In this document: piece after piece, positions 7,629 through 14,955 of the stretch
Layout of the letters: each line of letters opens with the position of its first letter
Position numbering within the stretch: position 1 is the first letter of the stretch
Source: Natronococcus sp. A-GB1
Lineage (GTDB): Archaea; Halobacteriota; Halobacteria; Halobacteriales; Natrialbaceae
DNA: 64,000 bases
Direction of reading: 5' to 3'
Assembly: GCF_029688845.1 (NCBI RefSeq)
Contig: NZ_JARUKW010000001.1
Coordinates: 434,001 to 498,000 of the forward strand
Program-made: the position numbers and the translations under genes
The notes under the pieces: generated by a model
Databases searched by the model: none
What the model was told of the DNA's origin: nothing
What the model saw: the letters and a program-made list of their open reading frames with translations, nothing else

Positions 7629-9107
7629 TCAGCCGCCTCCCCCGGACAGATCGACGAGGTCAACGCCGTCTGGTATCCGCTCGAGAACGTCCGCCGGCCA
7701 CCCCTGGTGTCCGAGCGCGAACTCGGTCTCGGGATTCGTCTCAACTAAACGGGCGACGCCGTCGGCCGCGGCCTCGAGCGCCCCGCGGTCGGTTCGCTTG
7801 GGAACTTCGGCGGTGAGGGGGTAGCTCTTCGAGAGCGCCCGCGGGAAGGGGCCAAACGGCGGCTGGACCCGCCAGGACTCGTCGTAGCGCTCGCTGTCGG
7901 AGTCGCCCTCGGTGAGAAACAGCGAGTCGGGTACCGAGAGCCGGTCGAGGCGCTGGTGGTGGCGCAGCACCTCGGGTCGGCGCGCACTCTCGTGGGAGGT
8001 ATAGAAAAAGGCGCCCTTCGAGACCGGATCCGAACGCTCGAGCTGGTCGGCGTGATCGAGCAGTGTCCGGTAGCCGTCGAGCATCGTCGGATGGGCGCGG
8101 GCGCGCTGTTCGACGAGTTCGAGGAGGTTGCCCGCGCGGATGGCCTGCTTGATGCGTCGGATCTCCTCGAACGTGACGTGGAGGTTGTGCGCGGCGAGCT
8201 CCTCTTCGCGCTCCCGGTCGGACAGCGCTCGTAACTCGTCGGGCGAGTGGGCGACGCAGACGGGACACGAACACGGCATGTAGTCGAGATTTTCGAGGTG
8301 ACGGGTGCCACGAACCGTCAGGTAGCGATCGTCGCGGGCGTACAGCGCGTACGCCGCCGAATCGAACAGATCGCAGCCCATCGCGACCGCGAGCGCGAAC
8401 ATCATGGGATGGCCGGCGCCGAAGAGGTGGACGGGCGCATCGGCGCCGAGGCCGCGTTTCGCGCCCGCGACGGCGTCGATCATGTCGTCGTAGCGGTAGT
8501 CGTTCATCAGGGGGACGACCGCACCGACAGGGAAGACGTCGAGGTCGGTTCCGGCAGCGTGGCGCCCGGCCTCCTCGCGGAGGTCGGGATAGGTCGAACC
8601 CTGGACGGGCGCGTTGACGAGCATCTCGCCGGTGTCGACGGTCTCGGCGATCTCGAGGCGCTCCTGGGTCGTCTCGAGTTCGCCTTCGGCTTGCTCGCGG
8701 GAGACGTCCGGGGGCGTCGGGATGTCGACCGGGGTGGCGATGTCGGAACCGATCCGGTACTGAAAGTCGAGGATCTCCTCGGTGGTGACGCTGATCTCGC
8801 CGTACTCCGCCAACTGGAAGGAGCCGGAGTCGGTCATGATCGCGCCGGGGAAATCGAGTAGCTCGTGGAGGCCGTCCTCGAGGGCTGCCTCGCGGACGTC
8901 GTCGGTGCCGTAGATGATATATGAGTTGGTAATGAGGATCTCGGCGCCGAACTCCTCGGCGAGCCGCCGGGGGGAAATCGTGTCCAGGTTCGGGTTGATC
9001 ACCGGTAACAGCGCCGGTGTCTCGACGGTCACGTCGGCACGCGGGACGGTGAGTTCGCCGATACGACCGCCGGCGTCGGCGTCCCGGAGTTCGAAGCACT
9101 CGCGCAT
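7629..9107 (-). CDS. tgtA: Archaeal tRNA-guanine(15) transglycosylase TgtA
   Basis: The protein has 492 residues from the ATG giving [19 protein letters not shown]. The longer upstream frame lacks family similarity. TgtA exchanges G15 in the tRNA D-loop for preQ0, the first step of archaeosine synthesis. TGT features seen are [17 protein letters not shown], the active-site stretch [15 protein letters not shown] near residue 90, [20 protein letters not shown], and the zinc motif CSCPVC-x-H near residue 277. At 492 residues it appears to lack the C-terminal PUA of longer archaeal TGTs, whereas ArcS nearby has one. It is a likely partner of ArcS. Confidence 0.95.
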
Positions 9108-9282
9108 CGACCGTGTGTTGGCGAGGGCGTCGGTAAACGTTCCGTTCCGCGCCGACGGTCCTCGGGCTCGGCATCGATCCGCTGTCGTACCAATGTTGAT
9201 TACGATCATAGCAGCCGATACGATGAACGAGAGATTAGGGACGGTTGCACGATTCTAAGTAGTCTTTTCTCGATGACAATGG

Positions 9283-9331
9283 TGTAACAGTCGTCTCGTT
9301 TTACTCTCCGACTGGATGTACCGTGGCGTGC
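9283..9331 (+). promoter_or_regulatory. Promoter region of first acidic repeat gene, duplicated at 10711-10762
   Basis: The bases before the ATG at 9332 (GGTGTAACAGTCGTCTCGTT...) align with those before the ATG at 10763 (GGTGGAACAGTCCCCTCGCT...). A TTTTA/TTTAG-like box lies about 28-33 bases before both starts, consistent with leaderless transcripts. The similarity shows that the duplication included the promoter, so the paralogues may be co-regulated. Confidence 0.6.
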
Positions 9332-10471
9332 ATGGTTTCACGACCGCAGCAACTTGGCGTGGTCTTTGTCGTGCTAATGGTCGCGCTCTCGGGAGGGTCT
9401 GCCCTCGCCGGAGCGTCTATGAGCACGAGCGACGACGCCGGAGACATGAGCGCAACACTCGAGAACGTACAGGTCGAGACACTCGAATTCGATAGCGTCA
9501 CTATCGAAGACGCGACAATAGAGGAGCTGAACGTCGAGGAACTCGACGCTGACACCCAGGAGCTCCAGGACGCACTCGATGAGGAGGACGATGTCGCTGA
9601 CGACGATGAAAACGATGTCGCTAACGACGACGATGAGATGATGGAGGATGAGGAGAACGACGTCGACGAAGTCACCATCACAGACATCGAGCTCGAGCAG
9701 CTCGAACTTGAGGACGTGACAATGGAGGACTTCGAGGAGGATACTGAGAACGACGTCGCTGACGACGAGGAGAACGACGTCGCTGACGACGAGGAGAACG
9801 ATGTCGCTGACGACGAGGAGAACGATGTCGCTGACGACGAGGAGAACGACGAAGCGAACGTGTTCGACGAGGACGCAGATGAGCTCACCATCGAAGAGCT
9901 CACTATCGAGTCGATGGACGTCGACCAGCTGACCATCGACGAACTGACTGTTGAGGAAGAGAACGATGTTGCCGATGACGAGGAGATGATGGATGACGAG
10001 GAGATGATGGATGACGAGGAGATGATGGATGACGAGGAGAACGACGTCGCTAACGACGAGGATGACGAGGTCGAGACACAGGAGATCGGCTCACTCACCA
10101 TCGAGCAGTTTGACGCCGACGAGATCAACGTCGACTCGATGACCGTCGAGTCGGTCGAAGAGGCTGACGACGAGGATAACGACGTCGCCGATGACGAAAA
10201 CGACGTCGCTGACGACGAGATGAACGACGACGATGAGATGATGGATGACGAGGAGAACGACGTCGCTGATGACGAAGAAACCATCTCGAATGCCTCCGCA
10301 TCGATGATCGAGATCGGTGATGCGACCGCCGCGTCACTCACCCTCGCCGACGCCGACGAACTCGAGGACATCGAAGATGACGAGGATGACGGCCTGCTAG
10401 AAGACGAAGACGATGGCCTGCTCGACGACGACGAGGAGAACGACGACGAACTGCCGTCGATCCTGAGCTAA
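9332..10471 (+). CDS. Secreted polyacidic repeat protein, paralogue A
   Basis: The protein has 379 residues from the ATG at 9332 (MVSRPQQLGVVFVVLMVALS). A Sec-type signal peptide probably ends near SALAGA. The mature protein alternates two kinds of sequence. Five ordered blocks have alternating hydrophobic residues, mostly with a five-residue period (TLEFD-SVTIE-DATIE-ELNVE; ELTIE-ELTIE-SMDVD-QLTID). Between them are spacers of D/E/N-rich repeats (ENDVADDE, EEMMDD). No cysteine, glycosyl-hydrolase motif or PGF-CTERM is seen, and the C-terminus reads NDDELPSILS. The same five blocks in the same order occur in the neighbour at 10763, with different spacer lengths. The family is not recognised. 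I infer an extracellular polyanion with beta-solenoid-like modules. Confidence 0.85.
   Translation: MVSRPQQLGVVFVVLMVALSGGSALAGASMSTSDDAGDMSATLENVQVETLEFDSVTIEDATIEELNVEELDADTQELQDALDEEDDVADDDENDVANDDDEMMEDEENDVDEVTITDIELEQLELEDVTMEDFEEDTENDVADDEENDVADDEENDVADDEENDVADDEENDEANVFDEDADELTIEELTIESMDVDQLTIDELTVEEENDVADDEEMMDDEEMMDDEEMMDDEENDVANDEDDEVETQEIGSLTIEQFDADEINVDSMTVESVEEADDEDNDVADDENDVADDEMNDDDEMMDDEENDVADDEETISNASASMIEIGDATAASLTLADADELEDIEDDEDDGLLEDEDDGLLDDDEENDDELPSILS
9746..9848 (+). repeat. 24-base tandem repeat inside paralogue A
   Basis: Four near-identical copies of a 24-base unit encode ENDVADDE. Copies differ only by synonymous T/C changes. The unit is an in-frame coding repeat, not a CRISPR array: the copies are directly adjacent with no spacers. 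Confidence 0.9.
9977..10030 (+). repeat. 18-base tandem repeat inside paralogue A
   Basis: Three perfect copies of GACGAGGAGATGATGGAT encode DEEMMD. This unit is tandem only in paralogue A, and single DEMMDDEE relatives occur in the longer unit of paralogue B. Confidence 0.9.
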
Positions 10472-10762
10472 CCGGAACGACTCCGAACGCGGTTCGAGGT
10501 TCGATCGGGTTCTCGGTCGAACCACCGTTTAATTTTTCGCCGATCGAATACTCCGGTAAACACTCGTTCACTCTCCTCTAAAAATAATATCGCAGCAGCC
10601 GCAAGCACAACAAGGATACTACTACATAAAGTGGCTGCTCTTCACCGTTTTTCTTCTCTGGTGATCCGGCCGTCCGTTGCTGGCGCTAATCGCGATTTTC
10701 TCTGAAATAATGGTGGAACAGTCCCCTCGCTTTAGTCGCGGTCTGACTGTAGGCCGAAACGC

Positions 10763-12112
10763 ATGGTCTCACGACTGCAGCAACTCGGCGTGATTTTCGT
10801 CGTAGTAATGGTCGCACTCTCTGGAGGGTCCAGCCTCGCCGGAGCGTCCGTAAATACGAGCGATAACGCCGGAGAGACGAGCGCAACACTCGAGAACGTA
10901 CAGGTCGAAATGCTCGAACTCGACAGCGCAACCGTCGAGGACGCGACGATCGAGGAATTGAACGTCGAGCAGTTCAGCGTTGATGAAGAGGAACTCGAGG
11001 CGGAACTCGACGAAGATGAGGAGAACGATGTCGCCGATGACGAGGAGAACGATGTCGCCGATGACGAGGAGAACGATGTCGCCGATGACGAGGAGAACGA
11101 TGTCGCCGATGACGAGGAGAACGATGTCGCCGATGACGAGGAGAACGACGTCGCTGAGGAACTCATGCTTACTGACGTCGAGATCGAGTCGCTCGAACTC
11201 GAGGACGTGACGATGGAAGACCTCGAATTCGAGGAGGACGAAATGAACGATGTCGCCGATGACGAGGAGAACGACGTTGCGGACGAGGACGATGATGTTG
11301 CTAATGATGAGGAGAACGATGTCGCTGACGACGAGGAAATCGACCTGATCGACGAGGAAGCTGACGAACTCGTCGTCGAGGATCTCACCATCGAGACGAT
11401 GGATGTCGAGGAGATGAGCATCGATGAGCTGACCATCGAGGACGATGGTATCCTCGACCAGATCGGTGACTGGTTCGAGGGTATCTTCGATGATGACGAG
11501 GAGAACGACGTCGCTGACGACGAGATGAACGACGATGATGAGATGATGGACGATGAGGAGAACGACGTCGCTGACGACGAGATGAACGACGATGATGAGA
11601 TGATGGACGATGAGGAGAACGACGTCGCTGACGATGAGATGAACGACGATGATGAGATGATGGACGATGAGGAGAACGACGTCGCTGACGACGAAGATGA
11701 CGAGGTCGCCGACGACGAGGCCGAAACACAGGAGATCGAGCAGCTGACCATCGAGCAGTTCGACGTCGACGAGATCACCTTCGACTCGATGACCGTCGAA
11801 TCGCTCGAGGACGTCGAGGAGGAAGACGACGAAGTTGCTAACGACGAAGAGGAGAACGACGAGGTCGCTAACGACGAGAACGACGAAATCGCTAACGATG
11901 AGGAAGACAACGAGAACGACGAGGTCGAGGAAGAAGTCGTTACCCAGGCTTCCGCGTCGGTGATTACGATCAGTGACGCGACTGCCGAAACGATCATCCT
12001 CGATACGGACGAGCTCGAGGACACCCTCGATGAAGAGGTTGACGACGAACCCGAGGAGGATAACGACGTGGACGACGAGAACGACGACGAGCAGCTCTCG
12101 ATCATCGCCTGA
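10763..12112 (+). CDS. Secreted polyacidic repeat protein, paralogue B
   Basis: The protein has 449 residues and is a tandem duplicate of the gene at 9332 (signal peptide VSRLQQLGVIFVVVMVALSG). The five hydrophobic-pentad blocks are conserved in order, for example VEIESLELEDVTMEDLEFEE, DLTIETMDVEEMSIDELTIE and QLTIEQFDVDEITFDSMTVE. The acidic spacers have grown independently: six ENDVADDE-type units after block 1 and three 19-residue units after block 3. A unique insert, LDQIGDWFEGIF, is the only aromatic, amphipathic stretch. The tail NDDEQLSIIA resembles paralogue A's. It is predicted extracellular and very acidic, with unknown function. A cation-binding, matrix or surface-layer-associated role is only a guess. 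Confidence 0.85.
   Translation: MVSRLQQLGVIFVVVMVALSGGSSLAGASVNTSDNAGETSATLENVQVEMLELDSATVEDATIEELNVEQFSVDEEELEAELDEDEENDVADDEENDVADDEENDVADDEENDVADDEENDVADDEENDVAEELMLTDVEIESLELEDVTMEDLEFEEDEMNDVADDEENDVADEDDDVANDEENDVADDEEIDLIDEEADELVVEDLTIETMDVEEMSIDELTIEDDGILDQIGDWFEGIFDDDEENDVADDEMNDDDEMMDDEENDVADDEMNDDDEMMDDEENDVADDEMNDDDEMMDDEENDVADDEDDEVADDEAETQEIEQLTIEQFDVDEITFDSMTVESLEDVEEEDDEVANDEEENDEVANDENDEIANDEEDNENDEVEEEVVTQASASVITISDATAETIILDTDELEDTLDEEVDDEPEEDNDVDDENDDEQLSIIA
11018..11161 (+). repeat. 24-base tandem repeat inside paralogue B
   Basis: Six adjacent units of 24 bases encode E-E-N-D-V-A-D-D. The first five are essentially identical and the sixth is degenerate. Near-identity at the DNA level points to recent expansion by slippage or unequal exchange. 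Confidence 0.9.
11522..11692 (+). repeat. 57-base tandem repeat inside paralogue B
   Basis: Three nearly identical 57-base units encode 19 residues each, covering EMNDDDEMMDDEENDVADD. A single related copy is present in paralogue A around 10217-10275, so the triplication occurred after the gene duplication. Confidence 0.9.
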
Positions 12113-12159: not shown

Positions 12160-12714
12160 CTACTGGCCGTCCTCGAACAAGCGGTAGTACGACAGCGCAA
12201 GCACCGTCCTACCGTCGCGGATCTCCCCGGTACGGACCGCCTCCGTGAGCTCCTCGAGGCTCGTCGCGGTGACCCGAATGCTCTCGTTGTGGTCGAGCCG
12301 TTGCTCGGTCGTGGGCCGACAGTCGTAGGCGACAAAAAAGTGCATGACGGAGTCGGCGATTCCGTTGGCGGGCTCGACCGTTACGAGCGCCTCGAGTCGC
12401 TCGGCCTCGTGGCCGGTTTCCTCGGCCAGTTCGCGCCTGGCCGCGGCCTCGAGGTCGTCGTCGTCGGGTTCGGTGCCGCCGACGGGAAGTCCGAGATTGA
12501 CCCGCGAGACCGCCTGGCGCCACTCCTCGATGCAGACGACGTCGCCGTCGGGCGTAAACGGTAGGACGCAGACGCTCGCCGGCTCCGAGACGTAGTCGAA
12601 CTCGGTTTCGCTCTCGTCCGGGAGCCGGACGGTTTCGGTGATCACGTCGAACCCCGGACAGGAGTACGACGTCCGTTCCTCGAGGGTTTCCCAGGCGAGC
12701 GGATCGGTTGGCAT
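12160..12714 (-). CDS. NUDIX hydrolase, ADP-ribose pyrophosphatase-like
   Basis: The protein has 184 residues and hydrolyses a nucleoside diphosphate linked to another moiety. The Nudix box is visible at about 79-101 (GTEPDDDDLEAAARRELAEE then TGHEAERL), with the catalytic REL-x-EE-x-G core intact and Asp in place of the usual first Glu. Upstream residues SVCVLPFTPDGDVVCIEEWR and the later VEPANGIADSVMHFFVAYD resemble ADP-ribose pyrophosphatases. The substrate is not determined. It lies tail to tail with the acidic repeat gene and is divergent from the PadR gene. Confidence 0.85.
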   Translation of the reverse strand: MPTDPLAWETLEERTSYSCPGFDVITETVRLPDESETEFDYVSEPASVCVLPFTPDGDVVCIEEWRQAVSRVNLGLPVGGTEPDDDDLEAAARRELAEETGHEAERLEALVTVEPANGIADSVMHFFVAYDCRPTTEQRLDHNESIRVTATSLEELTEAVRTGEIRDGRTVLALSYYRLFEDGQ

Positions 12715-12885: not shown

Positions 12886-13161
12886 ATGGACGAACTAACC
12901 GGATTCCAGCGCGACTTGCTGTACGTCATCGCGGGCAAGGACCGACCGTCGGGACAGGAAATCCTCGACGACATCAACCAGTACATCGACCAGCCGGTTA
13001 CACACGGCCGGCTGTACCCGAATCTCGACGCGCTCGTCGAGAAGGAACTCATCGAGAAGGGCCAGCTCGACCGGCGGACGAACTACTACGCGCTGACGCC
13101 GAAAGGTCGACGCGAACTCCAGCAGCGCCAGGAGTGGGTCAGTCGATACGTCGACGTCTGA
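12886..13161 (+). CDS. PadR-family transcriptional regulator
   Basis: This encodes 91 residues, the usual size of minimal haloarchaeal PadR proteins. The winged helix spans most of the chain: LTGFQRDLLYVIAGKDRPSG, QEILDDINQYIDQPVTHGRL, then YPNLDALVEKELIEKGQLDR and NYYALTPKGRREL. The GRLYPNL motif is the PadR signature. A TATA-like CTATAACAAA lies near 12836 with a short leader to the ATG. The target is unknown. Autoregulation is common in the family. Confidence 0.9.
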   Translation: MDELTGFQRDLLYVIAGKDRPSGQEILDDINQYIDQPVTHGRLYPNLDALVEKELIEKGQLDRRTNYYALTPKGRRELQQRQEWVSRYVDV

Positions 13162-14229: not shown

Positions 14230-14448
14230 TTACTCCTCGTCGTCCTCGTCGGTCTCTTGGCCGTTCCCGGTTCCCTCCTCGGCTTCGGCCTGATCGTCCT
14301 CGCCGCCGTCGAGTCCGCCGTCCTCGTCTTCTTCGGTGGGGTCCTCCGGAGCCTCTTCATCGTCTTCGTCGTCGCCACAGCCGGCGATCAGTGCGGTCGC
14401 CATCGTCGCGCCGCCGACCTGCAGCAGTCGTCGTCGGGTTTGATCCAT
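14230..14448 (-). CDS. Small Tat-exported lipoprotein with acidic tail
   Basis: This encodes 72 residues. The N-terminus DQTRRRLLQVGGATMATALI followed by AGC is a Tat signal with a lipobox, so the mature protein begins at Cys24 and should be lipid-anchored outside the membrane. The remaining 48 residues are almost entirely Asp, Glu, Gly and Gln (DDEDDEEAPEDPTEEDEDGG), with no folded domain. It may be a short surface polyanion. The function is unknown. Confidence 0.7.
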   Translation of the reverse strand: MDQTRRRLLQVGGATMATALIAGCGDDEDDEEAPEDPTEEDEDGGLDGGEDDQAEAEEGTGNGQETDEDDEE

Positions 14449-14565
14449 ACCCGTAGGTCTCGTTCGACCACTATACGCCGCTCCCCGGCATTCGCGTGGC
14501 CGGGCGCTCAAGCGAGCACGCCAGTGAGAGACAGCACCAAGAAGTCGGCGAGCGTGTCCCAAACC

Positions 14566-14955
14566 ATGATCCCGATCCCCGAGGAGTACCACGACCTGTT
14601 CGAGAAACCGACGTTCGCTCACGTCGGAACCCTAACCGCCGATGGCGCGCCCCATATTACGCCGGTCTGGATCGACTACGATCCCGAGGCGGAGCGACTG
14701 CTGGTCAACACCGAGCGCGGCCGCCAGAAGGAGCGCAACGTGCGGGCGAACCCCGCCGTCGGGGTCAGCATGACCGACCCGGACGATCCGTACCGGTACC
14801 TGTCGGTCGTCGGTGAGGTCGAAGGACTGCGGACGGACGGCGCTCGAGCCCACATCGACGAGCTTTCGCAGCGGTATCTGGACGTCGAGGAGTATCCGAA
14901 CCCGGTCGAAACCGAGCGGGTGATAGTTCGGATTCGGCCCGACCGAGTCCTCTGA
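14566..14955 (+). CDS. Pyridoxamine 5'-phosphate oxidase-fold protein (PPOX class)
   Basis: This encodes 129 residues from the ATG at 14566; in-frame upstream codons lack similarity. It has a split-barrel flavin-binding fold: IPEEYHDLFEKPTFAHVGTL, then TADGAPHITPVWIDYDPE, LLVNTERGRQKERNVRANPA and VGVSMTDPDDPYRYLSVVGE. This matches the F420/FMN-dependent PPOX-class family of about 130 residues. Archaeal members often use F420, but the cofactor and substrate are not determined here. Confidence 0.85.
   Translation: MIPIPEEYHDLFEKPTFAHVGTLTADGAPHITPVWIDYDPEAERLLVNTERGRQKERNVRANPAVGVSMTDPDDPYRYLSVVGEVEGLRTDGARAHIDELSQRYLDVEEYPNPVETERVIVRIRPDRVL

Follow-up and report, generated by a model that had tools for sequence, protein, structure and literature searches.

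The gene pair, its blocks and its spacers

The window (the whole 64,000-nucleotide stretch of Natronococcus sp. A-GB1 DNA that was analysed) holds two adjacent paralogous genes, here called A and B, on the plus strand between a gene for an archaeosine tRNA-guanine transglycosylase (tgt) and a gene for a NUDIX hydrolase.

7629-9209, minus strand: archaeosine tRNA-guanine transglycosylase (TGT), likely start near 9110 (PF01702, E 7e-87)
9286-9304, plus strand: promoter element of A, AACAGTCGTCTCGTTTTAC, 46 nt before the ATG
9332-10471, plus strand: gene A, the tgt-side paralogue (379 aa, five blocks, without the amphipathic helix)
9332-9415, plus strand: Sec-type signal peptide of A, by inspection
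10717-10735, plus strand: promoter element of B, AACAGTCCCCTCGCTTTAG, 46 nt before the ATG
10763-12112, plus strand: gene B, the NUDIX-side paralogue (449 aa, five blocks and the amphipathic helix)
10763-10846, plus strand: Sec-type signal peptide of B, by inspection
12160-12714, minus strand: NUDIX hydrolase (PF00293, E 1e-12)
12886-13161, plus strand: PadR-like winged-helix regulator (PF03551, E 8e-14)

Both reading frames lie where the initial annotation had placed them, and its description of their products as secreted and extremely acidic agrees with what we find. Aspartate and glutamate make up 45% of A and 47.5% of B, with a single K/R in each, giving net charges of -170 and -212. The hydrophobic N-terminus (MVSRxQQLGVVFVVLMVALSGGSALAGA in both) is clearly of the Sec type by inspection, and this putative export signal is conserved among the relatives. 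Cysteine is absent from A and B, so there is no lipobox, and at the C-terminus no anchor of any kind (archaeosortase signal, lipobox or transmembrane segment) is visible; the proteins could therefore be released. Coding on the plus strand is indicated by an excess of third-codon-position changes relative to close orthologues, with block differences at positions 1/2/3 of 8/5/31 and 8/8/25. This bias led us to reject as genes the antisense Ser-rich reading frames at 9301-10371 (356 aa) and 10732-12105 (457 aa), which are mirror images of GAC and GAG codons and could be mis-annotated by automatic callers. Near the pair, a minus-strand reading frame at 14230-14622 contains a start that resembles both a twin-arginine signal and a lipobox (MDQTRRRLLQVGGATMATALIAGC), after which comes a short tail rich in D/E; it is a possible small acidic lipoprotein.

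The five blocks of A and B align in order, as had been proposed, with 68% overall identity. The blocks had been described as non-repetitive, a view that has to be revised: each consists of 4-7 pentapeptides of the form hydrophobic-x-hydrophobic-x-x, with the hydrophobic residues at positions 1 and 3 of five (for instance LTIEQ FDVDE ITFDS MTVES), and the period-5 hydrophobicity score of the A and B blocks is 127/128, whereas 5000 shuffles averaged 40 and never exceeded 72. Blocks and spacer arrays, the latter found with Tandem Repeats Finder, are all on the plus strand:

9452-9556, plus strand: A block 1, seven pentapeptides (ATLEN VQVET LEFDS VTIED ATIEE LNVEE LDADT)
9671-9736, plus strand: A block 2
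9746-9851, plus strand: A spacer, 24-bp tandem array (ENDVADDE), 4.4 copies
9884-9958, plus strand: A block 3 (LTIEE LTIES MDVDQ LTIDE LTVEE)
9974-10040, plus strand: A spacer, 18-bp tandem array (DDEEMM), 3.7 copies
10082-10162, plus strand: A block 4
10286-10366, plus strand: A block 5
10883-10987, plus strand: B block 1, seven pentapeptides
11007-11154, plus strand: B spacer, 24-bp tandem array, 6.2 copies
11162-11236, plus strand: B block 2
11369-11443, plus strand: B block 3
11444-11491, plus strand: B-specific amphipathic helix motif DGILDQIGDWFEGIFD, directly after block 3 (hydrophobic moment 0.55)
11498-11700, plus strand: B spacer, 57-bp tandem array, 3.5 copies
11729-11803, plus strand: B block 4
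11948-12007, plus strand: B block 5

Across 1164 repeats from 58 Natrialbaceae proteins the consensus is (L/V/M/A)(T/E/D)(I/V/L)(E/D)(E/D/S/N/T), the central residue being I in 37%, V in 34%, L in 18% and F in 3% of repeats, and in these 58 proteins too the runs are 4-7 pentapeptides long. The spacers behave differently from the blocks. Their arrays have units of 15-57 bp and differ between A and B, which bears out the suggestion that the D/E/N-rich spacers expanded independently, and alignment with orthologues of the same genus opens 62-74 gap columns in the spacers against 0-2 in the blocks. Over the orthologues compared, the acidic spacers have 62-99 gap columns.

AlphaFold models of A and of L115, a relative with short early spacers, predict the same division, with beta-structured blocks (block means of pLDDT 76-94) and spacers that are mostly below 50 and disordered. 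The pTM values of 0.53 and 0.55, reached despite disorder in about half of the residues, suggest that the blocks hold defined relative positions, and it is the pTM that suggests packing of the five blocks as one domain. Neither model matched a solved fold in searches with Foldseek and VIA-align, and a search of a viral structure library gave no match; the blocks may form a new arrangement, or the interrupted chain may defeat such searches.

A conserved locus with its own promoter element

The idea of a local, unplaced system is not supported. Instead, A and B belong to a gene pair that is spread over the family and conserved in synteny: with the N-terminal 84 residues of B as query, relatives were found in 100 of 125 same-family genomes and 26 of 29 genera, with no internal stop among the matches listed, and Natrialbaceae genomes often carry two of the genes in tandem. 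An order-wide profile search gave matches in 146 of 392 genomes, with a weaker signal than within the family. Members from other haloarchaeal families have the blocks in the same order, and hhalign joins the Natrialbaceae and other-family profiles over blocks 1-4, also in the same order, with Prob 99.9 and E 5e-36. Some of these more distant relatives have Thr-rich spacers and an extra C-terminal Ig-like region (a weak Transglut_C match). Beyond the order we accepted no matches, as those obtained were short and marginal, and a plasmid search found no homologue.

Searches of Pfam and NCBIfam with A and B matched no family, in line with the earlier statement that none could be recognised; a search of PDB sequences likewise gave no family, and literature searches found no description of the family. 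From their sequences, A and B thus appear to be members of an undescribed, widely conserved haloarchaeal secreted-protein family, absent from the family databases searched (Pfam, NCBIfam and PDB).

Most family loci sit between tgt and the NUDIX gene. Among 40 loci examined, the family gene had tgt as a neighbour in 35, the NUDIX gene in 34 and, beside the NUDIX gene, a PadR-like gene in 34. Within two-copy loci the helix motif DGILDQIGDWFEGIFD follows block 3 in 19 of 19 NUDIX-side (B) copies and in none of 19 tgt-side (A) copies, and in two split pairs (G068, L052/L053; G063, L060/L059) it is again the NUDIX-side copy that carries the motif and the tgt-side copy that lacks it. In a sequence tree, A and B copies are not cleanly separated, probably because composition dominates, and the division into A and B types is thus based on synteny and the helix motif. 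One A-type copy (L039, 7660-10107, genome G046) is unusually long, with 815 aa and a second block-4-like segment, and has Cys in a few stretches (TGACCG, TECNV), whereas the window proteins lack it.

The promoter regions had been reported as duplicated, and indeed the two genes share 78% DNA identity in a 198-bp stretch that starts 68 bp before each ATG. In unaligned upstream sequences of 60 copies, a short element stands at a nearly constant distance from the ATG. Searching 125 genomes for AACAGTCNNCTCGTTTTAG with up to one mismatch returned 113 matches, of which 111 lie, by coordinates, about 46-50 nt before a family gene, whereas the reversed motif, used as control, gave none in the same genomes. 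At this stringency the window's own genome has the element before A and B only, and other families have AACGGT-N8-TTTA at a similar place upstream. We read the element, on this evidence from sequence and position, as a dedicated promoter of the family genes, and the PadR-like protein (12886-13161) is a candidate for a regulator acting on it. In genome G016 the A/B pair is gone from between the NUDIX gene and tgt, and the element persists there as a relic (L145, 4763-4781) with no family gene behind it; this is an apparent loss of the pair, and the genome has another copy elsewhere. The remaining stray match, in G005 before a phnC-like ABC ATPase gene, is at chance level.

Relaxing the motif to AACRGTN8TTTAK gives four sites in the window's genome, three of them before unrelated genes (for a helicase, a small His-rich protein and a zinc-finger-like protein), and a wider regulon is therefore not claimed. 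Downstream of one chance-like match to the relaxed motif lies a gene (L148; G000:C12, at about 193.5 kb) for a small, secreted-looking His/Asp-rich protein (MPTPTLRLTIGLLAVVALLGGAAIVSADD...HHDSHADHDHGAHHDD...), which is possibly metal-binding.

Spacer chemistry and a possible role at the cell surface

Among the relatives the spacers are of two types, either strongly acidic with few N-glycosylation sequons (N-x-S/T), or sequon-rich with less D/E. The D/E fraction is negatively correlated with sequon density (rho -0.80, 58 proteins) and with the number of sequons (rho -0.84, 26 genera), although some negative correlation is expected because both compete for the same spacer positions. The number of sequons per protein is close to bimodal, with 0-5 or 10-46 for nearly all; A and B of the window have one each, and many relatives have 10-46. 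Sequon-rich spacers replace acidic ones in many orthologues at the same locus, and in every genus examined the spacers are hydrophilic and either acidic or sequon-rich.

The two types apparently divide by habitat, in a comparison of 13 named genomes that is confounded by phylogeny and takes several habitats from general knowledge. The acidic type is found in Natronorubrum texcoconense, Natrialba chahannaoensis, Natrialba swarupiae, two Natrarchaeobius, Natronolimnohabitans, Natronobiforma and a Natrialbaceae MAG, and the sequon type in Haloterrigena salina, two Natrinema, Halovivax and Natrialba asiatica. Apart from the species documented below, we take the former to be from alkaline and the latter from neutral brines, a division that also runs within Natrialba. 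Natronorubrum is haloalkaliphilic and Natrinema and Haloterrigena are near-neutral (PMC8530250), and Natrialba asiatica is non-alkaliphilic (PMC3403918). As Natrialba and the window's genus each contain both spacer types, the switch has probably occurred more than once. The acidic spacers of the window pair would predict an alkaline habitat for its host.

We propose that A and B are secreted surface proteins whose loops, polyanionic or glycosylated, serve as a hydrated, ion-buffering layer, and give this reading a probability of roughly 0.45. The five blocks, in their fixed order, would probably assemble into a single small core resembling a beta-solenoid, from which the long spacers would be extruded as disordered loops. 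Loop charge could be supplied directly by D/E, as in soda-lake species and in the window, or through dense N-glycosylation sequons, as in the neutral-brine relatives; haloarchaeal N-glycans are often acidic. The core would thereby display a hydrated polyanionic brush, holding water and counter-ions, at or just outside the S-layer. A core presenting such loops would explain the constancy of block sequence and order beside spacers that drift in sequence yet stay acidic or sequon-rich. The extra amphipathic helix of B suggests docking, to the membrane, the S-layer or A, and on that ground the two proteins may work together, each presumably driven by its own conserved promoter element. An extracellular polyanion role, as put forward in the initial annotation, is thus plausible, but its focus on acidic charge as what is conserved is too narrow, because the same spacers are sequon-rich or Thr-rich in many relatives.

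The more specific proposal, that the five blocks form a single beta-solenoid core whose loops have been exchanged between D/E-rich and N-glycosylated forms across soda and neutral brines, we consider doubtful as a whole. If true, a single locus would show glycan taking the place of protein charge in nature. With acidic and sequon-rich spacers alternating at orthologous sites, comparison of the relatives offers a direct way to test what N-glycosylation of the surface contributes to haloarchaea, and how envelopes adapt to pH.

Two other functions are serious competitors of this reading, though each appears unlikely to us. Specific scavenging or storage of divalent cations (Ca2+/Mg2+), in which the acidic loops bind and the repeats only scaffold, would suit the D+E content of 45-48%, the net charges and the occurrence of the acidic type in soda-lake species, as soda brines contain little Ca2+ and Mg2+. 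Yet conservation is lowest in the acidic spacers, sequon-rich spacers substitute for them in many same-locus orthologues, and no defined metal-binding motif is seen. Comparably improbable is adhesion to exopolysaccharide or matrix, with the beta blocks binding surface polysaccharide or the S-layer and the loops as passive linkers: the blocks are indeed the conserved part, and the C-terminal Ig-like region of some other-family relatives and the best sub-threshold PDB profile match, a putative adhesin (3pet, E 0.15), would fit, but that match is not significant, and there are no matches to carbohydrate-binding families.

Replication slippage in a dispensable gene, leaving low-complexity spacers that have no selected function, could account for the near-perfect short tandem arrays and the large indels between close orthologues. 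We regard it as highly improbable, given the constant chemistry of the spacers in every genus examined, the intact reading frames among the matches listed, and the conservation of blocks, block order, A/B split, locus and promoter element over the whole family. Conservation in most Natrialbaceae genera, a fixed locus and a private promoter element indicate that the family is probably important. Also highly improbable are canonical pentapeptide repeat proteins with an Rfr beta-helix, acting as DNA mimics like MfpA or Qnr: the repeat does have a period of five, and 3 of 46 members match Pentapeptide_4 (best E 2e-4; L111 at 2.5e-4), but the features discussed below stand against it, and apparently secreted proteins would have no access to gyrase.

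Relation to known systems

Pentapeptide repeat proteins (PF00805/PF13599; MfpA, Qnr, HetL) resemble A and B in their period of five and in the beta-rich character predicted for the blocks, and some of them are secreted (Rfr32, YjbI), as A and B appear to be. The five-residue periodicity with hydrophobic i-2 and i residues is present in the family, and these residues would be expected to face inward in A and B, as they do in pentapeptide repeat proteins. The latter have at least eight contiguous repeats with a central L/F, and loop insertions are known in them, with 24 residues in Rfr23 (PMC8145042). In A and B, by contrast, the repeats are broken into five blocks of 4-7, and the family has a central I/V, T at i-1 and much longer spacers. 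Pfam pentapeptide scores, where listed, are 15-22 bits against a gathering cut-off of 38, and the window proteins themselves do not match the Pfam pentapeptide families. As to the right-handed quadrilateral beta-helix of pentapeptide repeat proteins, AlphaFold predicts beta blocks, and no fold match was obtained. Since the eight contiguous repeats, the central L/F and the Pfam score are lacking, we did not accept canonical membership, and the family is not filed there.

With haloarchaeal S-layer and secreted glycoproteins the family appears to share the Sec-type export signal, and its sequon-rich members resemble the multi-site N-glycoprotein substrates among them; the Hfx. volcanii SLG and HVO_2160 are substrates of AglB (PMC8241124). 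Unlike these glycoproteins, A and B have no S-layer domain, visible PGF-CTERM anchor or significant family match, and sequons are nearly absent from members of the acidic type. With poly-acidic or mucin-like surface brushes the analogy is functional only: they share disordered polyanionic or glycosylated segments with this family, and in both the bulk property is conserved and the sequence is not, but in such brushes the segment is a terminal tail, whereas here it forms loops between repeat blocks.
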